DNA from: Hyphococcus flavus
GTDB lineage: Bacteria > Pseudomonadota > Alphaproteobacteria > Caulobacterales > Parvularculaceae
DNA: 64,000 nucleotides
Direction of reading: 5' to 3'
NCBI RefSeq assembly: GCF_028748065.1
Contig: NZ_CP118166.1
Coordinates: 1,813,501 to 1,877,500 of the forward strand
The notes under the pieces were generated by a model, which saw only the letters and a list, made by a program, of their open reading frames with translations, was not told the DNA's origin and did no database searches. A program made the translations under genes and the position numbers. Shown one piece after another: positions 15,647 to 29,419 of the stretch. Position 1 is the stretch's first letter; every line of letters starts with the position of its first letter.

Positions 15647-15660
15647 TGACACCGGTAGCA
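15647..15660. promoter_or_regulatory. LacI-type operator site 1 (upstream of TonB receptor)
   Basis: TGACACCGGTAGCA matches the 14-base palindrome TGACACCGGTGTCA at 12 positions. It is centred 22 bp, about two helical turns, before site 2. Related sites are at 15669, 20293 and 22957. Confidence 0.65.
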
Positions 15661-15668
15661 ACAATAAA

Positions 15669-15682
15669 TGACACCGGTGTCA
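15669..15682. promoter_or_regulatory. LacI-type operator site 2, perfect palindrome
   Basis: TGACACCGGTGTCA is perfectly self-complementary with a central CG step, as in LacI/GalR operators. It lies 44 bases before the TonB receptor start. The linked LacI-family gene at 21832 is the likely binder. Confidence 0.75.
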
Positions 15683-15726
15683 AAATATCCAAACCGGCGT
15701 AAAATGCGCCATAATGGGAGGGAACC

Positions 15727-18474
15727 ATGACCGTACGACCACAAAAATCTTGCACCTTTTTGGGGGTGTCGCTTCTTGCTTTGGCTACAAGTATGGCCAT
15801 TCCTGCAAGCGCATTGGCACAAGACGATGAAACGGAAGATCGTATTGTCGTCACCGGTTTCAGGAGCAGCCTTGGCGCTGCGCTGCAAACAAAGCGCGAT
15901 GAAACATCTATCGTTGACGCGATTGTAGCAGAAGACATTGCTGACTTTCCTGACTTGAACCTCGCTGAATCATTACAGCGTATTCCAGGCGTATCTATTG
16001 ATCGCCAGGCAGGTGAAGGTCGCCGCGTAACGGTGCGAGGTCTTGGCGGTGATTTCACGCGTGTACGGATCAACGGTATGGAAGCGCTGACAACAAATGG
16101 CGGCTCTGACGCTTCGGGCGGGTCTAACAGAAGTCGCGCGTTTGACTTCAATACGTTTGCTTCAGAACTATTCAATGAACTGGTTGTGCGTAAGAGCCAG
16201 TCTGCTTCTGTGGAAGAAGGCTCGCTTGGCGCAAATGTCGAACTGAAAACTGCTCAGCCGTTTGATTACGGTGCAGGATGGACGGGGTCAGTTTCAGGCC
16301 AGGCTTTCTATAACGACCTCTCGGATGATGTTGGTCCTCGTCTTGCCGGACTCGTCTCTTACACGAACCCTTCTGAAACTTGGGGCGTGCTTTTATCCGC
16401 CGCCTATACTGAGCGCACGATCCGCGAAGAAGGGTTTTCGACAGTTCGTTTTGATGATCAGGGCGTTTTCCGATCTGTCGGCGGCGTCCCTTGCATGGGT
16501 GATCCATTGCCGGCGGATTGTCAGACACTGCAAAACGCCTACTACGCCCGCATCCCTCGTTATGGCCGGCTTGACTATGAGCAGGAGCGTCTCGGCCTGA
16601 CGGGTTCCATGCAGTTCCGCCCATCTGATAGAACAGTCCTTTCTATCGATGGCCTTTATTCAAACTTTGACGGCCAGCGCGATGAAGAGTTTCTGGAGGT
16701 TTTCATTCGCAGCAACACGGACAATGTTGATGTCACTGACTTCACAGTGGACAGCAATGGTGTTCTGACCCGCCTCGTTGGCGATTTGCAGCCGGATGTA
16801 TCGAACGGCTTGGTGCCGGCTCGCAGCGAACATCGCCGTGACTTTTTGAGTACTGAATTCTATCAGTTTACCGGCAATCTGGAACACGAGTTTTCAGATC
16901 GCATGCGCGGCAACATTTTCGGCGGCATTTCCCGGTCCGATTTTGACGTGCCGACCCAGGCGACCATTTTCTTCGACGCTGCAAATCCTGTAACCGGTTA
17001 CACCTATGACTTTACGGGAAACCCGAACGCAGCATTTGTCGATTTCGGGTCCATGGACGTAAACTCTCCTTCCTCGTTCCTGTTTACGCAGTTTCGGAAC
17101 CGGCCGCAGGGCGTCGACAATACATATGATACAATTCAGTCAAATCTTGAGTACGACCTGAATGATAATATCACCATGAAGGGCGGCGTTAGTTGGAAGC
17201 GATTTGAGTTTTCAACGTTTGAAGCGCGCGCAGAGGGTAGCGTTGCAGACTTGGATGGGTTCGAAGGCGCCGTTCCTGTCACAAGTGATCTTGTAGACCT
17301 GCTTACAGGCTTTGGCAGCGGCTTGGATGCGCCTAGTGGAATTGATACCAGCTGGGTTTCAGCGGATTTCGATGCGTCTGCTGCACTAATTGACCTGTTT
17401 AACATACCTGCAGTGCAGCGTGTGCAGGACACAAGAGGCGTCGTCGAAAAAGATCTCGGCGGATATGTCCAGTTTGATTTCAATTTCGATATGAACGGCA
17501 TTCCGGTCCGGGGTGATTTCGGTGTTCGGTATGTTGAAACAAGAACAGCATCGACCGGCGTGATTGTTGATGAAAACGACGAATTGATCGAAGTCACGGT
17601 TGATCGAAAATACGACGACTGGTTGCCTGCGTTTAACGTCGTGCTCGAGCCAGGTGAAGATTTCCTGATCCGCGCCGGGTTCGCGCAGGTGATGGCGCGC
17701 CCATCGCTGGGTAACCTGACGCCAGGCGGCTCTATCGATACATTTACTGGCCCGCCATACGCGATTGAATTTGGAAATCCCGGACTTGATCCGTTCCGCG
17801 CGACTAATCTGGACCTTTCGTTTGAATGGTACTTCGCAGAGGAGTCGCTTTTGGCGGTCGGTCTTTTCTACAAAGACGTTGGGTCTTTCTTCACGGAAAC
17901 CGATACGATTGAGACAACTTTCAGCCAGTCCGGTTTGCCTGCATCTGTCGCTTCGCCAACAAGCCCGCTTGGCATGGACTTGGCTGGAGGGGCAGACCCT
18001 GACGTTGAAATAGAACAAGTTGTGAATGGAGACTCAGCCAAAATCAAAGGCCTTGAATTTATCTATCAGCAGCCCTTCTCTTCGCTGCCGGGGCCATTTG
18101 GAAACACCGGTTTCATAGGCAACTACACATATGTTAGCTCTGATGAAATCATTGGCTTCTCCGACCATGCGTTCAACGCGACTTTCTATTATGAAGATAA
18201 TCGCTTGGGCGCACGCGTCACCGGCGCCTATCGCAGCGATTATCTAACGACAAACCCTCGCAGCAGCGATGGTAGAGAGGAACGCGGTGTTGCCTCCACG
18301 TTCAATCTTGACTTCGCTATGCAGTATGCGTTGACAGATAGCATAGAGCTGACTTTCGATGCGCTGAACCTCACGGATCAGTATGAGCATCAAACATTCG
18401 ATATGCTGGGGCTTCCAACGCTTTATCACCACACAGGTCGTAACTTCCTGTTCGGTGCGCGGTACAACTTCTAA
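15727..18474 (+). CDS. TonB-dependent receptor, Caulobacter/Xanthomonas type
   Basis: Outer-membrane receptor of 915 residues. A signal peptide ends at SALAQ (about residue 34). The plug domain follows with IVVTGFRSSLGAALQ and FPDLNLAESLQRIPGVSIDR, the pattern of the TIGR01782-type receptors that take up plant oligosaccharides and other substrates. The chain ends in an aromatic residue (RNFLFGARYNF), as needed for barrel insertion. Two operator-like palindromes stand upstream and a strong terminator follows. Its place at the head of a pectin locus suggests oligogalacturonate uptake, which is an inference from context. Confidence 0.9.
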   Translation: MTVRPQKSCTFLGVSLLALATSMAIPASALAQDDETEDRIVVTGFRSSLGAALQTKRDETSIVDAIVAEDIADFPDLNLAESLQRIPGVSIDRQAGEGRRVTVRGLGGDFTRVRINGMEALTTNGGSDASGGSNRSRAFDFNTFASELFNELVVRKSQSASVEEGSLGANVELKTAQPFDYGAGWTGSVSGQAFYNDLSDDVGPRLAGLVSYTNPSETWGVLLSAAYTERTIREEGFSTVRFDDQGVFRSVGGVPCMGDPLPADCQTLQNAYYARIPRYGRLDYEQERLGLTGSMQFRPSDRTVLSIDGLYSNFDGQRDEEFLEVFIRSNTDNVDVTDFTVDSNGVLTRLVGDLQPDVSNGLVPARSEHRRDFLSTEFYQFTGNLEHEFSDRMRGNIFGGISRSDFDVPTQATIFFDAANPVTGYTYDFTGNPNAAFVDFGSMDVNSPSSFLFTQFRNRPQGVDNTYDTIQSNLEYDLNDNITMKGGVSWKRFEFSTFEARAEGSVADLDGFEGAVPVTSDLVDLLTGFGSGLDAPSGIDTSWVSADFDASAALIDLFNIPAVQRVQDTRGVVEKDLGGYVQFDFNFDMNGIPVRGDFGVRYVETRTASTGVIVDENDELIEVTVDRKYDDWLPAFNVVLEPGEDFLIRAGFAQVMARPSLGNLTPGGSIDTFTGPPYAIEFGNPGLDPFRATNLDLSFEWYFAEESLLAVGLFYKDVGSFFTETDTIETTFSQSGLPASVASPTSPLGMDLAGGADPDVEIEQVVNGDSAKIKGLEFIYQQPFSSLPGPFGNTGFIGNYTYVSSDEIIGFSDHAFNATFYYEDNRLGARVTGAYRSDYLTTNPRSSDGREERGVASTFNLDFAMQYALTDSIELTFDALNLTDQYEHQTFDMLGLPTLYHHTGRNFLFGARYNF

Positions 18475-18520
18475 TCCCTTGGAACTAGGCGACGGTTATA
18501 GTTGCTGACCAAGTAAAAAA

Positions 18521-18556
18521 AGCCCGAAGCGTCCTCCCGCGCTTCGGGCTTTTCAT
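18521..18556 (+). terminator. Rho-independent terminator after TonB receptor gene
   Basis: AGCCCGAAGCG (18521-18531) pairs with CGCTTCGGGCT (18540-18550) in an 11-bp GC-rich stem with an eight-base loop. An A-run precedes it and TTTTC follows. Confidence 0.9.
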
Positions 18557-18582
18557 TGGCAAAAACTATAATCGGATAGTCT

Positions 18583-18762
18583 ATGATCAACCGGCGTAAG
18601 GTTCTTGAGTTGATTGGTATAGGCGGATCAGTGAGCATGCTTTCAGCATGTTCAACACATCAAGACTTTCGTCTTGCTGGTGGGCAGGAAAGAAGATCAG
18701 TTCTAATATCAGTCGTAGCCTTATGGCTGCGCACGCAGCCTCGAAAGTCAACAGTTCGCTGA
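18583..18762 (+). pseudogene. 59-residue ORF with Tat/lipoprotein signal, probable truncated gene
   Basis: The ORF begins MINRRKVLELIGIGG and continues SVSMLSACSTHQDFRLAGG. A twin-arginine, a hydrophobic run and a lipobox (LSAC) make a convincing export signal. After about residue 35 the sequence loses protein character and stops. This looks like the surviving 5' end of a Tat-exported lipoprotein gene. The alternative is a real short lipoprotein. No strong ribosome binding site is present. Confidence 0.4.
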
Positions 18763-18854
18763 CCGCAGCGACGGACATTTCTCAACAACCTTGTCTGTGA
18801 GTTTATACTGCAGCTGGCGGAGCGGTTTAAGACAATGACGTATTGAGCGATGAG

Positions 18855-19397
18855 CTAGTGTTCCCATTCCTGTTCCAGGAATTCGGCTAAGCCATTTTCC
18901 AGTTTGACTTCATGCTTTGTTTCTTCGCCTGTCTCGCTGCGGGTGAAAAATTCATAGATGATGACGCCATCGGTCTGATCACTTTCAATGATGCGGTCAG
19001 GCGATATGCCTGGTGCGTACTCTAACAGCACAGTGCGTACGGATTCTGGCGTTTTAACAAAACTGATATCGCGCTGAATTTCAACGACGCGCCAGCTTGC
19101 GCCGTCTTCCATGATATCAAGTTCGATCTCGAGGTTATTCTCATCGACGCCGCCAACGTCATAATAGGTTTTTCCGTTACGGATTTCTTTTTCGGCCTCG
19201 GTGAAAGTAACATTCGGCCGTGTAGCCTGTGCCACAGCAAGAACATTGGACGGCAGGTCATCAATGGTGACTTCGCTCTTATCGGTTAAAGAAGAACCGA
19301 TTTCTCCCTGAATACTCTCATTGTCACTGGAGTTACCAGTTTGTCCGCATGAGACTGAAAAAATAAACGCTGTAAAAAATAATGCTGAGCTTTTCAT
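18855..19397 (-). CDS. PepSY-like lipoprotein of unknown function
   Basis: Protein of 180 residues with a lipoprotein signal (FSVSCG, lipid-modified Cys17). The mature part has a PepSY-like repeat: FTEAEKEIRNGKTYYDVGG followed by a strand pattern with ASWRVVEIQRDISF, then a second half of similar layout ending in KHEVKLENGLAEF. Such domains occur as small periplasmic inhibitors or chaperone-like units. Its start overlaps the stop of the hydratase gene (ATGA), so both are translated from one message that is divergent from the pectate lyase. Role unknown. Confidence 0.65.
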   Translation of the reverse strand: MKSSALFFTAFIFSVSCGQTGNSSDNESIQGEIGSSLTDKSEVTIDDLPSNVLAVAQATRPNVTFTEAEKEIRNGKTYYDVGGVDENNLEIELDIMEDGASWRVVEIQRDISFVKTPESVRTVLLEYAPGISPDRIIESDQTDGVIIYEFFTRSETGEETKHEVKLENGLAEFLEQEWEH

Positions 19398-20248
19398 GCC
19401 GGTTGCCTCAAATTTGAAGATGCGGGATCGATTGGTTCAAAAGCAAATAATTCGCAACGAATTGGCTCTACGTCATCAAAAACAATGTTTGCCGTCTGGC
19501 CAACATGAGCCACGTGGACGCCAGTAATAGCGCCAGTTGAAATAACCATTCCTTTTTGAAGCGGCAGGCCGCGCTGGGCGCTTAGTTCCAGCAGGAAGCG
19601 TAACGATTCTAGTGGTCCGCCGGGAATCGATGCTGGCGATTCCTTGCCGACACTTTGGCCGTCGATGAAAGTTTCGCACCGCCAAGTATCAAATTTTAAT
19701 CGGCGCCAATTTGGAATTTCATTGCCAACGATCAAGCCGAAATTATTTCCGAAGTCCGATATTGTGACCAGCGGGCCAAAGTCATTGATTCCGCAAAAGG
19801 GGCTGCTGGCGATTTCAATGCCTGCTGCAATGGATTTAATTAAGTCAGCAGCCTCGTCGATAGTCCAATTTGCTTTCTCTGGAGGTGCATCAGTGCCTAA
19901 TGTAATTACGATTTCGCCTTCAATTGCTGCGAATCCGTTTTCAAAAACCGGCATCGCCTCGTTTTTTCCGTTCGAGCTTCTTATCGTTTTCTTGAAGATG
20001 GGACCGGCAAGACGATCAACGCCAAACCGTTTTTCATCTGCACCTGTGATCCTGCCGACTTTCCATCCTGCGATGTCATCGGACCAGAGGCTGATCGCCT
20101 CGTCCTGGATAGCGTAAGCGTTGCGCAAAGTGTCCGGCGGCGTCCCCGGATAGGTCTTGAGCGCCTGTCCGGCTTGGCGAGCCCCGACAAAAGACCGGGC
20201 GATCTCCGAGATGTCTGACACGTTGGCGGCTGGTTGTTTTTGTTGCAT
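19394..20248 (-). CDS. 2-keto-4-pentenoate hydratase/FAH-like protein
   Basis: Protein of 284 residues in the MhpD-like branch of the fumarylacetoacetate hydrolase superfamily. Visible features are AGWKVGRITG, AIEGEIVITLG (metal-binding E-x-E), AAGIEIASSPF and ISTGAITGVHVAHVGQT. Known relatives hydrate 2-hydroxypenta-2,4-dienoate or decarboxylate oxo-acids. Here it lies beside a pectate lyase and shares a divergent promoter carrying a LacI-type operator, so a role on an uronate-derived keto-acid is possible. No aromatic meta-cleavage genes are nearby, which argues against the textbook role. Confidence 0.75.
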   Translation of the reverse strand: MQQKQPAANVSDISEIARSFVGARQAGQALKTYPGTPPDTLRNAYAIQDEAISLWSDDIAGWKVGRITGADEKRFGVDRLAGPIFKKTIRSSNGKNEAMPVFENGFAAIEGEIVITLGTDAPPEKANWTIDEAADLIKSIAAGIEIASSPFCGINDFGPLVTISDFGNNFGLIVGNEIPNWRRLKFDTWRCETFIDGQSVGKESPASIPGGPLESLRFLLELSAQRGLPLQKGMVISTGAITGVHVAHVGQTANIVFDDVEPIRCELFAFEPIDPASSNLRQPA

Positions 20249-20292
20249 ATTTTTGCGCCTGTCGATTTTTGTCCCTGATGGTGGACTTTATA

Positions 20293-20306
20293 GGAAACCG
20301 GTGTCA
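20293..20306. promoter_or_regulatory. LacI-type operator site 3 (hydratase/pectate lyase divergent region)
   Basis: GGAAACCGGTGTCA matches the palindrome TGACACCGGTGTCA at 12 of 14 positions. It lies between the divergent hydratase and pectate-lyase starts and could control both. Confidence 0.6.
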
Positions 20307-20374
20307 TTTTCAAACAAAAGAGCTGCCCGTAGATGATTTTGGGCGCTAAAAGATGACTTTGGAGGAGGCTTTTC

Positions 20375-21748
20375 GTGTTTATCACAGGATTTCTCAAAAT
20401 AATTCGCAGTCTGGCGGTGATAACCGGGGTGAGCCTTCTCGGCGCATGCGGGGGCGGAGAGTCTGCTGAAAACGAATCACGGACGGAAGCCGGCCGCGCC
20501 GCCTTTGATGGCGCGTTGGGCTGGGCCGCGACAACGCCAGGCGGGCGTGGCGGAGAAGTCATCAAGGTGACCACTCTCGCTTCTGATGGGCCGGGCTCTT
20601 TGCGCGATGCTATAAATACTGAAGGCCCGCGGATTATCGTCTTTGAAGTCGGCGGCGTCATCGACCTACAAAAATCAACACTGTCTATCACAGAACCGTT
20701 CGTGACGATTGCAGGTCAAACGGCGCCTTCGCCGGGCATCACTCTGATCCGTGGCGGGATTGATGTGCGAAGTCATGATGTGATCATTCAGCATCTGCGC
20801 ATACGACCGGGCGATGTGGGCGAACCGCGCGCCAGTGGCTGGGGTGAAGATGCTATCTCTACTGTCTCCGCATACAATGTGATTGTCGATCATTGCTCTT
20901 TAACCTGGGCGACCGATGAAAACCTCTCCGCTTCAGGTCCGCGCTTTACTGGTGATACGCCCAAGGATTGGCGAAACGGCACGTCTCATAACATCACATT
21001 CAGCAACAATATCATTGCCGAAGGGCTTGCTGACTCAACTCATCCTAAATTCGAACATTCCAAAGGCTCGCTCATCCATGACAATGTCAGTAAGTTGCTG
21101 ATTTACGGTAATCTTTATGCGCATAATTATGAGCGCAGCGCGCTGTTTAAGGGCGGCGTTCATGGCGCCATGATCAATAACTTCATTTATGATCCGGGTC
21201 CGCGCGCTATTCACTACAATCTACAGGCGCTTGAATGGGGTGACGTTCCATTTGAAACGGGTCAGATGACGCTGATCGGCAATGTTTTGCGCGGCGGCCC
21301 ATCTACGCCTGCAGATCTTCCAATGGTGATGCTTGGCGGCGACGGCGATCTTGCTTTGTACATGCGGGACAACGTCGCTGTCGACGAATATGGCCGGCCT
21401 TTGCCGGTTACGGGCCGCTACACGACAAGCGCAGCAAAGATTGTCGAGGTTGCCGAACCGCTTGACCTTCCGGACAATGTCACGCCTTGGCCGTCAAATC
21501 TTGTAGAGCAGCATGTATTAGCCAATGCTGGCGCGCGCCCATGGGATCGCGATGCACATGATGTACGGGTTCTTGCGAACGCAGCCGAGGGCAGAGGCTG
21601 GATCATTGATAGCCAGGAAGAGGTTGGCGGCTATCCCGAAATGGCGGAAACAGGGCGCGAATTCGATCCGTCGCAATGGAATCTCGATACGATGGAACCG
21701 CGCAGACCTGACGTTCTCGATGATGGATCGAAGGCGCGTGGTACTTAA
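20375..21748 (+). CDS. Pectate lyase family lipoprotein (PL1-like)
   Basis: Protein of 457 residues. The lipoprotein signal ends in LLGACGGG (Cys25), so the enzyme is probably anchored in a membrane. The parallel beta-helix start is typical: VIKVTTLASDGPGSLRDAI, then ITIAGQTAPSPGI-like VTIAGQTAPSPGITLIRGG, and VIVDHCSLTWATDENLS, which carries the acidic calcium-binding segment. Pectate lyases cut polygalacturonate by beta-elimination and leave unsaturated oligomers. The GTG start follows GGAGGAGG by six bases. Operator site 3 lies upstream. Exact subfamily and product pattern cannot be read here. Confidence 0.85.
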   Translation: MFITGFLKIIRSLAVITGVSLLGACGGGESAENESRTEAGRAAFDGALGWAATTPGGRGGEVIKVTTLASDGPGSLRDAINTEGPRIIVFEVGGVIDLQKSTLSITEPFVTIAGQTAPSPGITLIRGGIDVRSHDVIIQHLRIRPGDVGEPRASGWGEDAISTVSAYNVIVDHCSLTWATDENLSASGPRFTGDTPKDWRNGTSHNITFSNNIIAEGLADSTHPKFEHSKGSLIHDNVSKLLIYGNLYAHNYERSALFKGGVHGAMINNFIYDPGPRAIHYNLQALEWGDVPFETGQMTLIGNVLRGGPSTPADLPMVMLGGDGDLALYMRDNVAVDEYGRPLPVTGRYTTSAAKIVEVAEPLDLPDNVTPWPSNLVEQHVLANAGARPWDRDAHDVRVLANAAEGRGWIIDSQEEVGGYPEMAETGREFDPSQWNLDTMEPRRPDVLDDGSKARGT

Positions 21749-21831
21749 GCTCTTTACGGGGATAAAAGGAGTTTGCGCTTTGCCGAAGAGCAAGCGAAAG
21801 TTTCTGTCAACGAATCAATAATGGACTCATC

Positions 21832-22920
21832 GTGGCGCGCGGCGGCAAAAAAACTACCAACACAGCGGAAACTTTGCCGGCGAATACACGTGCTTTGGGC
21901 GGTCGCGCGAAGATAACGATTAACGACATTGCGCGCCTTGCAAATGTTTCAAAGAAAACCGTCTCGCGGGTGATCAATGAATCGCCGCTTGTGCGTCAGG
22001 AGACACGGGAAAAAGTCAAAGCGATCATAGCGGAGCACGGATATGCCCCTGATCCGCAGGCTAGGGCGCTGGCGTTTAGGCGATCATTTCTCGTGGGTAT
22101 GATCTACGACAATCCAAGTCCGCAATATGTTGTGAACATGCAGCGCGGCATACTGGATGTTCTCGCCGATACGAGTTTCCAGCTCGTTTTGCACCCTTGC
22201 GAGCGCAGCGAAGCTACATTCAAGCAAAAAATTCACACATTTGTCAGTCAGCAAAAACCCTTGGGTGTTATTTTGCCTCCGTCAGTCTCCGAAGATGATA
22301 CGCTTGCCGAGATGTTCGAGGAATTAGGTTGCGAATATGTTCGCATTGCTTCGGTTGAGCTTGACGCGCCCTCACGTATGGTTCGTACCCATGATGCGGA
22401 GGGGGCGGCGCAGGCCGCGCGACATTTGGCTTCGCTGGGGCATGAAAAAATAGCCCACATTCATGGCCCTAAAACTTTCCGTTCTGCACACGAGCGGATG
22501 GCAGGGTTTAAGGCTGGACTGAAAGAGCATGGTCTTTCACTGCGGAAAAAATGGACAGTTGAGGGCGCGTATACTTTTGATTCAGGCGTGCAGTGTGCGG
22601 AAAAACTGATTTACTCAGATGCTCGTCCAACGGCGATCTTCACAGGTAATGACGAGATGGCGGTCGGTGCTTATCAGGCTGTGCGCAAGGCTGGGTTGCG
22701 CGTGCCAGACGATATCTCTGTTGTCGGGTTTGACGATACGCCCATGGCGGCGCGGGTCTGGCCGCCCATGACTACTGTGCGCCTGCCTATCCGGGAGATG
22801 GGTCAAGCTGCGGCCTCGTTGTTGTTAAAGGAACCTGTTGAAAAGGCAGGGTCTGAGCTTGTGTCGTTCACGCCGGAGATCGTGGTCCGGGAATCCGCCG
22901 CATCTCCTGCAAAAAGCTAG
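21832..22920 (+). CDS. LacI-family transcriptional regulator
   Basis: Repressor-type protein of 362 residues. The helix-turn-helix is [20 protein letters not shown] at about residues 29-48, followed by the hinge region with ALAFRRS and a periplasmic-binding-like ligand domain ([40 protein letters not shown]). The LacI HTH binds CG-centred palindromes, which matches the TGACACCGGTGTCA sites around the locus. It sits between the lyase and the keto-deoxy-sugar genes and is the obvious regulator of both. The effector is probably a pathway intermediate such as 2-keto-3-deoxygluconate (inference). The start is a GTG. Confidence 0.9.
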
Positions 22921-22956
22921 CAACTAGCCGCTTGAATATATTAGGTTTCGATGTTA

Positions 22957-22970
22957 TGACACCGGTTACC
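22957..22970. promoter_or_regulatory. LacI-type operator site 4 (upstream of isomerase gene)
   Basis: TGACACCGGTTACC matches the palindrome at 11 of 14 positions, with one half-site intact. It lies 53 bases before the isomerase start, in the gap after the LacI gene. Confidence 0.55.
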
Positions 22971-23022
22971 TAAATGCAGTTGGGTGGGTTTGTCCGCAGC
23001 CGTCGAAAAACAGGTAGGTTCA

Positions 23023-23664
23023 ATGAAAATCGCACTGATTATTGAAAACAGCCAGGCCGCCAAGAGCGATATAGTTCATGACGCGCTGACCTCGGTGGTT
23101 GAGCCGCTCGGCCACCAGGTTTTTCACTACGGCATGTACACGCCGGAAGATAAGGCCTCGCTGACATATCCGATGAACGGACTTCTTGCCGGCATACTTA
23201 TCAATTCAAAGGCGGCGGACTTCATTGTCACGGGGTGTGGCACCGGTATGGGTTCTATGCTGGCCTGTAACGCCATGCCCGGCGTTTTTTGCGGCCTCGT
23301 TGTGGATCAAACGGACGCCTTTCTTTTCGGTCAGATCAACGACGGAAACGCTCTGGCTATGCCATACGCAAAGGGCTTCGGATGGGCTGCGGAGCTGAAC
23401 CTTCAGGATTGCTACCGCAAGCTGTTCGAGGTTGAGCGCGGCGTTGGATATCCGAAAGAGCGCGCAGCTGTCATGGCGAAGAACCGCGGCATACTGAAAG
23501 ATCTCAAAGCCGCGTCATGTAATGACATGCTCGATGTACTGAAAGAGGTCGACCAGGATCTGTTGAAGGCAGCCATCGCGGGAGAGCGTTTCGAGGAGTA
23601 TTTCTTCTCAAACGCGCAAGATGAAGCAATCGCTGATTACCTCAGAAGCGTATTACGCTCCTGA
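23023..23664 (+). CDS. RpiB/LacAB-family isomerase, probable DhuI-type uronate isomerase
   Basis: Protein of 213 residues in the RpiB/LacA/LacB family, with the substrate loop TGCGTGMGSMLACNAMPGV and a C-terminal helical part longer than in RpiB. DhuI, a member of this family, converts 4-deoxy-5-hexosulose uronate to 3-deoxy-2,5-hexodiulosonate in place of the cupin KduI. The next genes (KduD, KdgK, KDPG aldolase) use exactly that product, and no KduI is present, so the DhuI role is strongly suggested by context. The ATG at 23023 follows AGGTAGG. Confidence 0.75.
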   Translation: MKIALIIENSQAAKSDIVHDALTSVVEPLGHQVFHYGMYTPEDKASLTYPMNGLLAGILINSKAADFIVTGCGTGMGSMLACNAMPGVFCGLVVDQTDAFLFGQINDGNALAMPYAKGFGWAAELNLQDCYRKLFEVERGVGYPKERAAVMAKNRGILKDLKAASCNDMLDVLKEVDQDLLKAAIAGERFEEYFFSNAQDEAIADYLRSVLRS

Positions 23665-23725
23665 GCGCAGCACACTTAAATAATTGGACGAAGATCCAAA
23701 ACTGTTAGGGATTAATTGGCTTCAA

Positions 23726-24475
23726 ATGTTTAGCTTGAAAGACAAGGTTGCGCTGGTAACTGGCGCCAATACCGGCATCGGGCAAGGGCTCGCCATCGGT
23801 CTTGCAGCGGCAGGCGCCGATATCGCCGCTGTCGGGCGAACAGCGCCAGAGGAAACAAAAGCTGAAGTTGAAAAACTGGGCCGGAGATTTGCGTTTATCG
23901 AAGCGGATCTGTCTTCCACGGACGGCGTTGAGGCTGTCGTAACCGCAGCGGAAGCAGCGCTTGGGCCGGTGGATATTCTCGTCAACAATGCCGGCACGAT
24001 CAAACGCAACGATGCGCTCGATTTCACCGAGGAAGACTGGGACTCGGTGATGGACGTTAATCTGAAAACCCTGTTTTTCCTTTCACAGGCTGTCGCCCGA
24101 AAAATGGTCGCCGCGGGATGCAAGGGAAAGATCATCAATATCGCGTCGATGCTGTCGTTTCAGGGTGGTATTCGTGTTGCGTCCTATACGGCCAGCAAGA
24201 GCGGCGTTGCAGGGCTTACAAAGCTGCTCGCCAATGAATGGGCTTTGAAAAACATCAATGTAAACGCGATCGCACCCGGGTATATCGCAACGAATAATAC
24301 GGCTGCATTGCGGGCCGATGAAAAACGCAACGCGGAAATTCTCGGGCGAATACCGGCGGGCCGCTGGGGCAACCCTGATGACCTTGCCGGTGCCGTTGTG
24401 TTTCTGGCGTCATCAGCATCGGACTATGTGCATGGCACGACCTTGGCAGTCGATGGCGGCTGGCTCGCGAGATAG
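23726..24475 (+). CDS. kduD: 2-deoxy-D-gluconate 3-dehydrogenase / 3-deoxy-2,5-hexodiulosonate reductase (KduD)
   Basis: Classical short-chain dehydrogenase of 249 residues. It has the cofactor motif TGANTGIGQG (12-21), NNAG at 87-90 and the catalytic set S141, Y154, K158 (SYTASKSG). It would reduce 3-deoxy-2,5-hexodiulosonate to 2-keto-3-deoxygluconate in the cytosol. Family assignment among the many SDRs rests on length, the start MFSLKDKVALVTG and, above all, position between the isomerase and KdgK. The start at 23726 is the canonical methionine of the family. Confidence 0.85.
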   Translation: MFSLKDKVALVTGANTGIGQGLAIGLAAAGADIAAVGRTAPEETKAEVEKLGRRFAFIEADLSSTDGVEAVVTAAEAALGPVDILVNNAGTIKRNDALDFTEEDWDSVMDVNLKTLFFLSQAVARKMVAAGCKGKIINIASMLSFQGGIRVASYTASKSGVAGLTKLLANEWALKNINVNAIAPGYIATNNTAALRADEKRNAEILGRIPAGRWGNPDDLAGAVVFLASSASDYVHGTTLAVDGGWLAR

Positions 24476-24499: not shown

Positions 24500-25528
24500 A
24501 TGCCTGACTTTCTCACTTTCGGCGAAATCATGCTGCGTTTGAAGACGCTAGGTCATGAGCGGTTCTTTCAGTCGCCGTCATTTGAGGCGACCTTTGGCGG
24601 CGGAGAAGCGAATGTCGCCGTGGCGCTGTGTAATTACGGTCTTGATGCTGCTTTTGTTTCGGCGTTGCCCGATAACGATATCGGCGAAAGCGCAGTGCGC
24701 GAACTACGAAGTTTCGGTGTAGACACGCGTCATATCCGGCGTTCAGGCGACAGGGTCGGTATCTACTATCTAGAAACCGGCGCCAATCAGCGTCCGTCGA
24801 AAGTCGTTTACGATCGCGCGAATTCATCGATTGCTGAATGCAAGCCAGGCGATTTCGACTGGGCAAAGATATTCGATGGCGCGAAGTGGCTGCACATCAC
24901 CGGCATTACGCCGGCGCTGACGCAAAACTCCGCAGACCTGAGCCTTGAATGCGTGCGCGAAGCGAAAAACGCCGGCGTCACGGTGTCATGCGATTTCAAT
25001 TATCGCGGCAAACTCTGGAAATACGGCAAGTCCGCGCCGGAAGTGATGACCGAGCTGGTGAAGTATGTGGATGTGGGCATCGCCAACGAAGAAGACTGTC
25101 AGAAGTCTCTGGGCGTTACAGTCGATGTGGAAGTTGAAAGCGGCGAGCTCGATACGGCGAAATATGAAGCGCTATCGGCAAAAGTGCTGGAGCTTTATCC
25201 GAATATGAGCGCCATCGCGATCACGCTGCGCGAGAGCAAGAGCGCCGATCACAATGGCTGGTCGGCGTGTTTGCGCGACAAGGACGGATTCAAACTAAGC
25301 CGTCGCTACGACATGACCGATATCGTCGATCGCGTGGGCGGCGGCGACAGTTTCGCTTCGGCGCTGATCTACGGCCTTAACGCCTACACTGATCGCCAGC
25401 AGTCGCTGGAATTCGCTGTCGCCGCGAGCTGCCTCAAACATTCCATTCTCGGCGACTTCAACCGCGTTAGCGTCTCCGAGGTCGAAAAGCTTATGTCCGG
25501 CGACGGATCGGGAAGGGTGCAGCGGTAA
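24500..25528 (+). CDS. kdgK: 2-keto-3-deoxygluconate kinase, PfkB family (KdgK)
   Basis: Sugar kinase of 342 residues. PfkB signatures are [15 protein letters not shown] near residue 35 and [16 protein letters not shown] near residue 280, whose Asp is the catalytic base. [16 protein letters not shown] at the N-terminus is typical of KDG kinases. It phosphorylates 2-keto-3-deoxygluconate with ATP to give KDPG for the aldolase encoded next. The gene begins 24 bases after kduD. Confidence 0.9.
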
Positions 25529-25548: not shown

Positions 25549-26181
25549 ATGCTCGCTGAGAAATTGAACAATACGCCGGTGGTTCCGCTGGTGCAGGCCG
25601 ACGACCCGGAAGTTGCGCTGAAAACGGTTGCGGCGCTTCAGGCGGGCGGGCTCGACATAATCGAAGTCGTGTTGCGAACCGACGCGGCGCTTAGCTGTCT
25701 CGAAGCGATCGCAAAGGAAGCATCAGGCGCCATCGTTGGCGCTGGCACAGTGCTTTCTGAATCTCAGGCAAAAGAGGCTGTGAAGCATGGCGCAAAGTTT
25801 ATTGTTTCACCAGGCTTGAATGATGATGTCGTGAAGTTTTGCCAAGCGCATAAGTTGGAGGTTTTTCCTGGCGTCGTCACCCCAAGTGAGGTTCAGCGCG
25901 CCTGGAATTTGGGATTGCGGACAGTCAAGTTTTTTCCGGCGGGGCTTTCCGGCGGCGCGCCGATGTTGAAGGCACTGTCATCCGTATTCCGCGGAATGAA
26001 ATTCATGCCGACGGGCGGCGTATCTACGGATAATTTAAAAGACTTTTTGGCGATCCCTTCAGTGATCGCCTGCGGCGGAAGCTGGCTAACGCCAGCGAAA
26101 GAAATTGAAGCCGGTAACTTTGGTGCGGTGACAGAGCTTGCGAGTGAGGCGGTGAAGCTTGCCGCTGAAGTGCGGAAATAA
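25549..26181 (+). CDS. eda: 2-keto-3-deoxy-6-phosphogluconate aldolase
   Basis: Class I aldolase of 210 residues that splits KDPG into pyruvate and glyceraldehyde 3-phosphate. The Schiff-base lysine is K127 in RTVKFFPAG, and the general base is E39 in DIIEVVLRT. AIVGAGTVL and FMPTGGVS complete the phosphate site. Length and motifs match Eda. It ends the pectin-derived sugar acid branch and feeds central metabolism. Confidence 0.92.
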   Translation: MLAEKLNNTPVVPLVQADDPEVALKTVAALQAGGLDIIEVVLRTDAALSCLEAIAKEASGAIVGAGTVLSESQAKEAVKHGAKFIVSPGLNDDVVKFCQAHKLEVFPGVVTPSEVQRAWNLGLRTVKFFPAGLSGGAPMLKALSSVFRGMKFMPTGGVSTDNLKDFLAIPSVIACGGSWLTPAKEIEAGNFGAVTELASEAVKLAAEVRK

Positions 26182-26214
26182 ATGACGCCTTAAGGCGCGA
26201 GGGAGGGCGTGGCA

Positions 26215-27807
26215 ATGCGCCAGTATAGCAACATCAACCGCCGGGACGTTCTGGCAACCGGCCTTGCGGCCAGTACGCTTTTTCCCTCCAGCGCAGTCGC
26301 GGCAAAGACAGAAGAACACCCAGTTGCATTGACCAGCCATGGGCCGGTCAGAGGCTATATTCGAGACAACGTCAAAACTTTTAAAGGCGTTCGTTACGGT
26401 GCAGATACATCTGAACGACGCTTTCAAAAACCTGTCGCGCCTATACCATGGCAAGACCCAGTTGATTCATTCGACTATGGCGCGGCCTCTCCGCAACGTG
26501 GCGATCGTGAAGCGATGGGTGAGGACTGTTTGTTTTTAAACGTCTGGACGCCTGCGTTGGCAGATGGCGGCGCCCGCCCGGTGATAGTTTACTTTCACGG
26601 CGGCGCCTACAATTCTGGCTCGGGATCGCATTCGCTTTATGACGGCGTAAATCTTGTCAACAAGGGTGACGTTGTCGTCATTACAGTCAATCACCGTCTC
26701 AACGCCTTCGGCTATTTGTACTTGCCGATGCTGACTGGCGGGGCTTTTCCGGATTCTGGCAACGCAGGCATTTGGGATCTGGTGCTTGCCCTTGGGTGGG
26801 TGCGAGACAACGCTGCAGCATTCGGCGGCGATCCTTCCCGTGTGATGGTTTTCGGGCAATCCGGCGGCGGCGCAAAAATCGCGACTATGATGGCGGCTCC
26901 GGCAGCGAGGGGTCTGTTTCATTCAGCGGCAACGATGAGCGGTCAGCAAGTGACGGCATCAGGTCCGCTAAACGCGACAGAACGTGCGCGTGCTTTCCTG
27001 GATGCGGCGTCGATTGAATATGATGACGTAGAATCATTGAAAACTGCGCCCGCAGAAAAAATGATTGAGGCGCTGTCAGCTGTTGATCCAATTAATTCCG
27101 AACGCGGGCTTTATTTTGGGCCTGTGCTGGACGAGAGGTTTTTAACGCAACATCCGTTCTGGCCTGAAGCGCCAGCGCAATCGGCTTCAATTCCGATGAT
27201 CCTAGGCAATACAAAAGATGAAACGCGCAACCTCATTGGTAATCGTGAGCCGGATACGTTTGATCTGACCTGGGATGAGGTCCCCGCACGTCTTGCCCGG
27301 CATATGCGTGTTGACATATCTCCAATAGAAGTTCTGGAAACCTACCGCCGAGTTTATCCTGATTACTCTCCATCCGATGTTTTCTTCGCAGCGACAACAG
27401 CGGGCCGGTCATGGCGAGGGCAGGTTGAGGAGTCTGATGCGCGCGCGCGGCAGGTCGCCCCTACTTGGGTTTATCAAATGAATTTACCATCGCCTTTAGA
27501 CGGCGGTAAATGGGGCGCCCCACACACATTCGATATTCCGCTAGCGTTTGACAACATGGAAAAGGAAGGCTCCATGACCGGAACGGGGCGCAGTGCGCGC
27601 CGCGTGGCTGATCAGTTAAGCAAAGCGTTTATCAATCTCGCACGCAATGGCGATCCTAATCATGATAGCATACCACAATGGGGTAAGCATAATTTGCCTG
27701 CCCGAGAGACTATGGTGTTCGACGAGGAAACGCAGCTTGTCAGTGATCCGCGTAAGGAAGAACGCGAGCTTTTTGCGAAAGTTCCTTTTATACAGTGGGG
27801 AACATAA
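26215..27807 (+). CDS. Exported type-B carboxylesterase
   Basis: Alpha/beta hydrolase of 530 residues with a Tat-like signal (NINRRDVLATG, then alanine-rich cleavage region near residue 30). The oxyanion segment FHGGAYNSGSG and the nucleophile elbow GQSGGG (S216) are clear; the histidine is probably in GAPHTFDIPLAF. Placed at the end of the pectin catabolic genes it may remove methyl, acetyl or feruloyl esters from pectin fragments, which is an inference. The ATG at 26215 fits the GGGAGGG seven bases before it better than the GTG at 26209. Confidence 0.8.
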   Translation: MRQYSNINRRDVLATGLAASTLFPSSAVAAKTEEHPVALTSHGPVRGYIRDNVKTFKGVRYGADTSERRFQKPVAPIPWQDPVDSFDYGAASPQRGDREAMGEDCLFLNVWTPALADGGARPVIVYFHGGAYNSGSGSHSLYDGVNLVNKGDVVVITVNHRLNAFGYLYLPMLTGGAFPDSGNAGIWDLVLALGWVRDNAAAFGGDPSRVMVFGQSGGGAKIATMMAAPAARGLFHSAATMSGQQVTASGPLNATERARAFLDAASIEYDDVESLKTAPAEKMIEALSAVDPINSERGLYFGPVLDERFLTQHPFWPEAPAQSASIPMILGNTKDETRNLIGNREPDTFDLTWDEVPARLARHMRVDISPIEVLETYRRVYPDYSPSDVFFAATTAGRSWRGQVEESDARARQVAPTWVYQMNLPSPLDGGKWGAPHTFDIPLAFDNMEKEGSMTGTGRSARRVADQLSKAFINLARNGDPNHDSIPQWGKHNLPARETMVFDEETQLVSDPRKEERELFAKVPFIQWGT

Positions 27808-27929
27808 CACGTTAAAGCTGACTATTAAGTTTGGCGTCTGTAAATATAACAGAGCATCAATGACGCCTTGAGGAAAAGCAAAAGCGGCCACTACAAAAAG
27901 CCGCATTCAAGAGCTGGAGACATGTTCTC

Positions 27930-28910
27930 ATGAAAATCAGCAGGCGATTGGCGATGTTGGGGGGCGCATCTTTGTTCGCTGCCTGCGAGCGCCAACATAG
28001 TCGACCGCTTTATTCCAGCGACACGCACCCGGAAGAGTACCCGACAGTGCAGGCTGTTAAGGAAATGGGTCGACTTCTTCGTGAGCGCACGAATGGCGAA
28101 CTGGACATAAAAATATTCGCCGGCGGGCAGTTAGGCTCGGAAAGAGATACCCTGGAGATAACAACTTTTGGCGGTCTCGATATGAACCGCGTGTTTCTTG
28201 CGCCGCTAAACGCAATCGAGCCGTTAACGACAATTCCGTCGTTACCGTTTCTGTTTCAGTCAACTGAACATATGCGCGCTTCACTGGACGGCGCGCCGGG
28301 AGAAGCGATTCTCCGCTCGCTAGAGCCTCACGGCCTTGTCGGCCTTTGCTTTTACGACTCGGGCGAGCGCAGTTTTTACAATGTAGGCCGGGAAATTTTA
28401 ACGCCTGACGACATGAACGGCATGAAGATCAGGGTACCGAATTCCGATCTGAATGTTGCGATGATTCGTGCGCTTGGAGCCGACGCAACGCCAATGTCTT
28501 TAAGCGAAGTTTACCAGTCGCTTGTGCAGGGCGTGATTGACGGCGCTGAAAACAATTGGCCCTCCTATGAGTCAGGCCGACATTTTGAAGCAGCGCCATA
28601 CTACTCGCTAACGCGCCATGTCATGACCCCGGAAATTTTACTCATGTCTAAAACGCGCTGGAGCAAGCTTTCCCTAGAGCAGCAGCAAGTGGTGAGGCAG
28701 TCTGCAAAGGATTCAGTTCCGTTCATGCGTAGGCTTTGGGATCAGCGCGTTGCTGAAGCACGAGACCGTCTCATCGCGGCAGGCGTTAAGGTGAATGAAG
28801 TTTCCGATCTTGCCCCATTCGTTGAACTCATGCGGCCAGTTTGGGAGCAGTTTGTCGTAACCGACGATCAAAAACGGCTTGTACGAGAAATTGAGGAGTT
28901 AGCAGCTTGA
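27930..28910 (+). CDS. dctP: TRAP transporter substrate-binding lipoprotein (DctP family)
   Basis: Protein of 326 residues whose signal ends in a lipobox (SLFAAC, Cys19), so it is membrane-anchored rather than freely periplasmic. The DctP fold is seen in FAGGQLGSERDTLE, IPSLPFLFQS, GMKIRVPNS (the conserved arginine that binds the carboxylate of the ligand) and YQSLVQGVIDGAENNWPSY. It should capture an organic acid, here most likely a uronate or unsaturated uronate from pectin. Its stop is shared with the DctQ start. Confidence 0.9.
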   Translation: MKISRRLAMLGGASLFAACERQHSRPLYSSDTHPEEYPTVQAVKEMGRLLRERTNGELDIKIFAGGQLGSERDTLEITTFGGLDMNRVFLAPLNAIEPLTTIPSLPFLFQSTEHMRASLDGAPGEAILRSLEPHGLVGLCFYDSGERSFYNVGREILTPDDMNGMKIRVPNSDLNVAMIRALGADATPMSLSEVYQSLVQGVIDGAENNWPSYESGRHFEAAPYYSLTRHVMTPEILLMSKTRWSKLSLEQQQVVRQSAKDSVPFMRRLWDQRVAEARDRLIAAGVKVNEVSDLAPFVELMRPVWEQFVVTDDQKRLVREIEELAA

Positions 28911-29419
28911 TGATGAACCAACTCTCGAAAGTCACCCATGTAGCTGCTGATCTCTTGTTAAAGGCGGCGGCTGCAGGCTTGGCGATAATGACTGTGATCG
29001 TCGGCTGGCAGGTGTTTGGCCGATATGTATTGAATTCAAGCCCTTCCTGGTCAGAGCAAGCCTCCTTGACCTTGATGATCTGGTACGTCTCGTTTGCCGC
29101 TGCTGCTGGCGTAAGAGAAGGCTTTCATATTCGCATCGTTGCTGTTGAAAATGCAGTTCAAGCAGGAATACGCAAGATGATGCGCGTTGCTGCCGATTTG
29201 GTTGTGGCGGCGTGCGGCGTCGCCATGTTGATATGGGGCGGGGAGCTGGTGGCGCGAACATGGTCACACGTCATTCCATCGCTTGGTCTGCCGCGCGGGC
29301 TTGCCTATCTGGGACTTCCCATTTCAGGCGCGCTCATTTTTCTTTTTTCAGTCGAGCGTGTTCTGGAAGAACTAAAAGGAGTCGATCTTAAGGACGAGGA
29401 GGACCCGCGATGGAGCTGA
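28910..29419 (+). CDS. dctQ: TRAP transporter small membrane subunit (DctQ family)
   Basis: Protein of 169 residues with four hydrophobic segments. VFGRYVLNSSPSWSEQAS in the first half is the DctQ signature. The ATG at 28910 overlaps the DctP stop (TGATG), and the gene overlaps the next by ten bases, showing a coupled three-subunit transporter. Confidence 0.9.
   Translation: MMNQLSKVTHVAADLLLKAAAAGLAIMTVIVGWQVFGRYVLNSSPSWSEQASLTLMIWYVSFAAAAGVREGFHIRIVAVENAVQAGIRKMMRVAADLVVAACGVAMLIWGGELVARTWSHVIPSLGLPRGLAYLGLPISGALIFLFSVERVLEELKGVDLKDEEDPRWS

Follow-up and report, generated by a model that had tools for sequence, protein, structure and literature searches.

A LacI-family regulator, two operator designs and a predicted regulon for pectin use in Hyphococcus flavus

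We analyzed a stretch of 64,000 nucleotides, referred to as the window, from the one-contig genome of Hyphococcus flavus (3,472,649 bases), in which a pectin gene set lies at ~15.6 to 27.8 kb. The LacI-family regulator encoded within this set (21832..22920, plus strand) very likely controls the surrounding pectin genes through four sites, as judged from comparison with related genomes. We put the probability at about 90% that the locus forms a local pectin/galacturonate regulon run by this one protein as a repressor, which would be released by a pathway intermediate. LacI-type regulons for sugar acids are well known, as passages of PMC4052901 describe, and the switch is ordinary in kind; what stands out are two conserved site designs and an apparent intragenic site in some relatives.

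The preliminary description of this DNA, made from the sequence alone, had reported four copies of a CG-centred palindrome, and all four were found where it placed them. The putative proximal receptor operator, the perfect palindrome TGACACCGGTGTCA (15669..15682, no strand assigned), ends 44 bp before the ATG of a gene for a TonB-dependent receptor. The putative distal receptor operator, TGACACCGGTAGCA (15647..15660, plus strand, 12/14 matches), lies 22 bp upstream of it, and the same pair with the same letters is present in the nearest relative locus, L050, from a metagenome-assembled genome of the Parvularculaceae whose LacI is 88% identical. The other two are TGACACCGGTTTCC (20293..20306, minus strand, 12/14 matches) in the gap between a hydratase-like gene and a pectate lyase gene, and TGACACCGGTTACC (22957..22970, plus strand, 11/14 matches), which starts 37 bp downstream of lacI. 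With up to three mismatches allowed, the window contained 9 matches, whereas 100 shuffled versions averaged 1.72 and never exceeded 5; genome-wide this search was unspecific, with 177 matches per strand vs. 63 for a backwards control. A whole-genome scan had been proposed as a check. The strict form TGACACCGGTNNC was specific at this scale, as its four occurrences in the 3.47-Mb genome all fell inside 7.3 kb of the locus. Among 29 genome rows for TGNNACCGGTNNCN, all those starting with TGACACC (five rows, four places) fell in the locus. A scoring matrix built from 137 sites of the relatives' loci, with L050 left out, gave its top three scores in the own genome to 15669 (25.5), 20293 (20.8), and 15647 (20.6), and 15.9 to 22957; the scoring covered 48 loci, many of them overlapping, and not every base of the genome. 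Four sites outside the locus scored 15.9 to 17.9, all inside open frames of 125 to 662 amino acids, one of them (L139) at the first codons of its frame. The open-frame test is loose, as an antisense frame of 181 amino acids also runs across 15647 and 15669, and one of 236 amino acids across 20293. No further regulon members outside the locus were found among the matches listed, where weak members could be missed.

A search of the genome with LacI-family models found a single gene, the one at 21832, in agreement with the claim that it is the only LacI gene. Its product exceeds the cut-offs of PF00356 (70.5 bits) and PF13377 (137 bits), corresponding to a LacI helix-turn-helix domain and a periplasmic-binding-like effector domain, and its recognition helix reads VSKKTVSR. 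All 20 NCBIfam models matching the protein scored below their own cut-offs. Positions 2 to 329 of 331 of the RbsR model cover residues 27 to 357 of 362, leaving 5 residues, and the LacI-type model PRK09526 matches up to position 335 of 358. As the protein ends with the RbsR match, no lac-type tetramer tail is expected; a C-terminal tetramerization helix, as in lac-type looping repressors, appears to be missing, judged by length alone.

The tie between this regulator and the sites was followed through relatives of the LacI gene, of which the best 80 of 251 loci were used. The specificity positions were KK in 78 of the 80 orthologs, the other two being unread. A site with at most two mismatches was present in 72 of the 80 LacI-encoding loci (140 sites in total), and matrix matches scoring at least 8 numbered 358 over the 80 loci vs. 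35 in one simulated set. CG-centred inverted repeats in the gaps before adjacent pathway genes, kept together with the regulator, are what marks a local regulon of the LacI family, and the locus shows them. The perfect palindrome was found in 65 of 398 genomes of the order and the backwards control in no row. In a set of 60 genomes, own genome included, it was present in 9 of 14 genomes carrying an ortholog and in none of 46 others (Fisher P = 1.4e-7, relatedness ignored), where ortholog means at least 47% identity, a cut chosen after inspection of the table. The proposal that the 21832 protein binds the sites is well supported by this comparison, i.e., by the single LacI gene found, the 72 loci, and the restriction of perfect palindromes to ortholog carriers. 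The pathway genes that surround lacI in the window (KduD, aldolase, kinase, and pectate lyase) fit this link as well. The gene neighbors of the ortholog in Caulobacter (L106), which is flanked by altronate hydrolase/galactarate dehydratase and by UxaC, KduI, and an SDR dehydrogenase, agree with a galacturonate-pathway signal.

The sites at 15647, 20293, and 22957 had been described as imperfect copies of the palindrome. Their positions are correct, but those at 20293 and 22957 represent a second design that is kept exactly, not a decayed form of the palindrome. Half-site tallies showed that palindromic sites mostly consist of two joined TGNYACC halves and are variable, whereas asymmetric sites strictly combine TGACACC with GGWAACC (131 copies with GGTAACC, 39 with GGAAACC, the TTTCC form, and 5 further one-letter variants of TGACACCGGTTACC). 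The 20293 site, whose exact sequence occurs 39 times in the 80 loci, and the 22957 site belong to this asymmetric design. Exact TGACACCGGTTACC was present in 77 of the 80 loci (none in L075, L078, and L081), lying 30 to 121 bp past the end of the lacI match in 72 and further downstream in L053, L112, L120, L125, and L129. Asymmetric operators also tend to point at genes: for 172 such sites in the window and the 80 loci, a frame of at least 200 amino acids starting within 320 bp was found on the pointed side in 167 cases and on the other side in 122, on the pointed side only in 48, and on the other side only in 3.

Upstream of receptor genes, operators mostly occur in pairs. A script searched for palindromic-class sites scoring at least 15 (asymmetric ones excluded) followed by the receptor plug motif. 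It covered the window and the 80 loci, together with 30 loci retrieved by the perfect palindrome only (L217 to L246). It returned 61 receptor cases, 45 with at least two upstream operators and 16 with one; it misses plugs outside the pattern, such as those of L062, L064, and L077, where operators are paired upstream. Two of the 16 single cases (L056, L232) do have another site at a distance of 24 bp, either weaker or asymmetric. The pair in the window fits this general habit, and the spacing of 22 bp given in the preliminary description is correct; cooperative binding on one face of the DNA, which it also proposed, is only plausible. The ten distinct spacings (19, 22, 24, 31 to 35, 96, and 99 bp) lean weakly towards whole helical turns (R = 0.53, P = 0.045, ancestry ignored). 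An earlier phasing test (R = 0.68, P = 0.006) was set aside, as it used nine spacings taken by eye, including one of 44 bp that is absent from the receptor spacings.

The receptors with a single upstream operator often contain a second candidate site inside the gene. The 14-mer GGTAACCGGTTTCC, made of two GGWAACC half-sites as in the asymmetric operators, lies over the V-T-G-F-R codons in 10 of the 16 single-operator receptors (L054, L058, L059, L060, L063, L065, L072, L079, L095, and L101) and in none of the 45 with pairs (Fisher P = 8.9e-8). The ten mostly represent one Hyphomonas/Ponticaulis-type group and are therefore not independent, with L095 as the distant one. In the eight genomes searched by way of their loci, 58 stretches are able to code for V-T-G-F-[R/S] and 8 of them have the 14-mer; all 8 occur in the six genomes with single-operator receptors (45 stretches), where 6 are those receptors and 2 (L215, L216) lie outside receptor frames. 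Family f2 includes, judging from matching coordinates, the genome of L058 (Hyphomonas atlantica); of its 11 genomes that have the perfect palindrome, 10 also contain GGTAACCGGTTTCC. Across the 398 genomes of the order it occurred at 27 places, 18 of them receptors by frame reading. Ten of these receptors have a perfect palindrome 163 to 193 bp upstream; the other 8, all of family f3, have no site scoring at least 10 within 700 bp, which means that the letters of the 14-mer also arise without the regulon. One f3 receptor group (L191, L192, L194, L196, L197) has the same V-T-G-F-R 14-mer and no operator-like site within 700 bp, perhaps through shared codon choice or ancestry. In 12 receptors with GGTAACCGGTTTCC, 46 invariant residues are fourfold degenerate, and only 3, the V, T, and G of the motif, are also invariant in codon, while the other 43 vary. 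This invariance is partly by construction, since the rows were picked for holding the 14-mer; the count over the 61 receptor cases was not so picked.

From these observations, GGTAACCGGTTTCC in the V-T-G-F-R codons is probably an intragenic operator in the relatives. We lean towards a reading in which the receptors of the regulon need two operators, mostly both upstream, as in the window; the Hyphomonadaceae group and L095 would have one upstream and the second in the plug codons as GGTAACCGGTTTCC, so that a motif conserved in the protein would have come to serve as a repressor site. A dimer without a lac-type tail would act there either as a roadblock or by looping over 163 to 193 bp (337 bp in L095).

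The statement that the sites lie nowhere inside genes of the locus holds for good matches and fails for weaker ACCGGT-centred ones, three of which are located in the receptor gene of the window at 15849 (matrix score 13.1), 16989 (11.6), and 18102 (9.2). We do not favor these as operators in the window, as their equivalents in L050 all score below 8. The match at 15849, CGTCACCGGTTTCA (15849..15862, plus strand), lies over the V-T-G-F-R codons and is probably due to coding chance; the corresponding codons of L050 retain ACCGGT yet score 2.2. As a caution, it alone among the genome's 9 V-T-G-F-[R/S]-type stretches contains ACCGGT, which argues against a plain codon habit.

Some of the asymmetric sites are in register with promoter-like sequences. 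TTG occurs exactly 17 bp before the hexamer ending in the TGAC of the operator in 39 of 99 plus-strand TGACACCGGTTACC sites, the window included (TTGAAT-17-TATGAC, 22932..22960, plus strand, with the -10 overlapping the operator), and 36 of the 39 hexamers read TATGAC. This register suggests that the operator probably covers the -10 and the start. For the 20293-type operator, adjoining TTGAAA was seen in L050 to L053, L055, L058, L065, and L080, and the window has a consensus-like TTGAAA-17-TAAAGT (20285..20313, minus strand) leading into the hydratase gene with the operator in the spacer. The constancy of the asymmetric sites might stem from a second function that overlaps the operator (a -10 element, or a further factor bound to the GGWAACC half) instead of a need of LacI for that half. 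The TTG register and the orientation towards genes agree with this explanation, but the remaining 60 of the 99 sites lack the register and have identical 14 letters, and two GGWAACC halves alone make the relatives' intragenic 14-mer, which lies downstream of the upstream operator and within a gene. We consider a second function possible but doubtful.

Several observations weigh against a repressor regulon of the 21832 protein. The 47% cut was set after the fact; at 50% identity the perfect palindrome is found in 8 of 13 carriers and in 1 of 47 others, and at the original cut it is missing from 5 of the 14 carriers. The looser TGNNACCGGTGTCA was found in 13 of the 14 carriers, yet 6 of the 46 genomes lacking a close ortholog contain it as well. 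TGACACCGGTTACC was found in 28 of 398 genomes drawn from the phylum, and 30 loci were fetched with it. A LacI relative lies within 1.5 kb in 7 of these, the window's own included; 11 show homologs of other query proteins only, some of them weak (e.g., an SDR piece at 38% in L182), and 12 have none of the 13 query proteins within that distance. Promoter-like sites in the stretch numbered 10 vs. 6.3 ± 2.7 in shuffles, so the promoter at 20285..20313 is weak on its own. A receptor promoter could not be fixed in a comparison of 48 distinct receptor promoters; the candidate GTGTCA-17-TAAAAT, with its -35 inside the operator, was rejected, as TANNNT at that gap occurs only in the window among the 48. 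The LacI protein may also activate in place of repressing. The 12 phylum loci without a LacI or pathway homolog nearby and the 6 genomes with TGNNACCGGTGTCA would suit a different regulator binding the sites; the sites, however, travel with LacI proteins of the 21832 type, a single LacI was found in the genome, and inverted-repeat palindromes are usual for LacI motifs (passages of PMC4052901), which makes another regulator quite improbable. Chance or compositional ACCGGT matches, suggested by the abundance of loose matches and by their presence in coding DNA, are refuted almost beyond doubt by the confinement of the strict form to the locus, the exact conservation beside the ortholog, and the control that appears in no row of 398 genomes.

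For the regulon of the 21832 protein we infer binding, repression, and release as follows. Without inducer, LacI dimers would occupy the palindromic operator pair before the TonB receptor gene, the asymmetric operator in the gap from which the hydratase and pectate lyase genes diverge, and the asymmetric operator over the -10 of the probable promoter between lacI and rpiB-kduD-kdgK-eda. A pectin breakdown product, with 2-keto-3-deoxygluconate as our best guess, would release the protein. Without a lac-type tetramer tail, strong repression would require paired sites, a roadblock, or GalR-like contacts.

The receptor (15727..18474, plus strand) belongs to the TonB-Xanth-Caul subfamily (TIGR01782, 625 bits). 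The 2-keto-4-pentenoate-hydratase-like protein (19394..20248, minus strand) had weak matches far below cut-off and is a probable divergent target of the 20293 site. Its gene shares the operator gap with pectate lyase in the window and in many relatives, and no pectin role can be named for it. The pectate lyase (20375..21748, plus strand) was recognized by the PelZ model (394 bits, below the cut-off of 840) and PDB entry 9buj (E = 1.2e-22) and had no Pfam match at E = 0.001. Downstream of the 22957 site and all on the plus strand follow an RpiB/LacA/LacB-type isomerase (23023..23664; the ATG at 23023 was chosen from relatives, the listed open reading frame starting with GTG at 22984), which is possibly a 4-deoxy-5-hexosulose-uronate (DHU) isomerase, a role that we presume; KduD dehydrogenase (23684..24475; TIGR01832, 414.6 bits, over cut-off); a PfkB kinase, probably for 2-keto-3-deoxygluconate (24500..25528), and KDPG (2-keto-3-deoxy-6-phosphogluconate) aldolase (25549..26181), both from profile matches; and a carboxylesterase with a Pfam-type profile match (26209..27807) at the end of the probable operon. 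A small protein with a lipoprotein-like start, MKSSALFFTAFIFSVSCGQTG (18855-19397), adjoins the pectin genes and has no Pfam match; in other relatives its counterpart (32 to 44% match) follows the esterase gene. TGACACCGGTTACC also precedes TRAP transporter genes in many relatives (e.g., L053 at 17708, L054 at 14838, and L056 at 13770). No TGACACCGGTTACC-type site was found before the TRAP transporter in the window (27807-29410), L050, or L051, and control of the transporter seems different in this branch.

In Escherichia coli, lac O1/O2 and gal OE/OI each combine a promoter operator with a second operator within the first gene. This layout resembles that of the single-operator relatives, whereas the window uses an upstream pair. 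The IclR-type KdgR of Gammaproteobacteria serves the same pathway as the predicted regulon and belongs to an unrelated regulator family. The KdgR, UxaR, and UxuR groups in passages of PMC4052901 share with the window a LacI-type regulator beside sugar-acid catabolic genes and an inverted-repeat motif; they are placed in Bacteroides, unlike the window, and were compared by description only. The same passages assign to Caulobacter, which also carries relatives of the 21832 LacI, the LacI-family regulators GluR, acting on central sugar metabolism via a 20-bp palindrome, and BglR1-3, acting on beta-glucoside genes, a likeness of description and not of motif. The words "pectin" and "Hyphomona" were not found in the main text of that paper. 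A LacI-type UxuR2 is named in Algoriphagus (passage of PMC5507952), and a receptor gene lies beside pectin enzymes in Xanthomonas (passage of PMC1790865). Titles, abstract starts, and passages from a literature search gave no account of this LacI ortholog group, its regulon, or the two operator designs, and the letters of TGACACCGGTGTCA did not occur in the best-ranked literature matches.

The analysis provides a predicted regulator-operator pair for the use of pectin in this alphaproteobacterial group, together with its target genes, and an operator grammar comprising a palindromic pair, an asymmetric gene-facing site, and, in relatives, a probable intragenic site. The apparent replacement of an upstream operator by one written in receptor codons would cleanly test why two sites are needed by LacI dimers, as well as how a conserved protein motif can carry a regulatory site.

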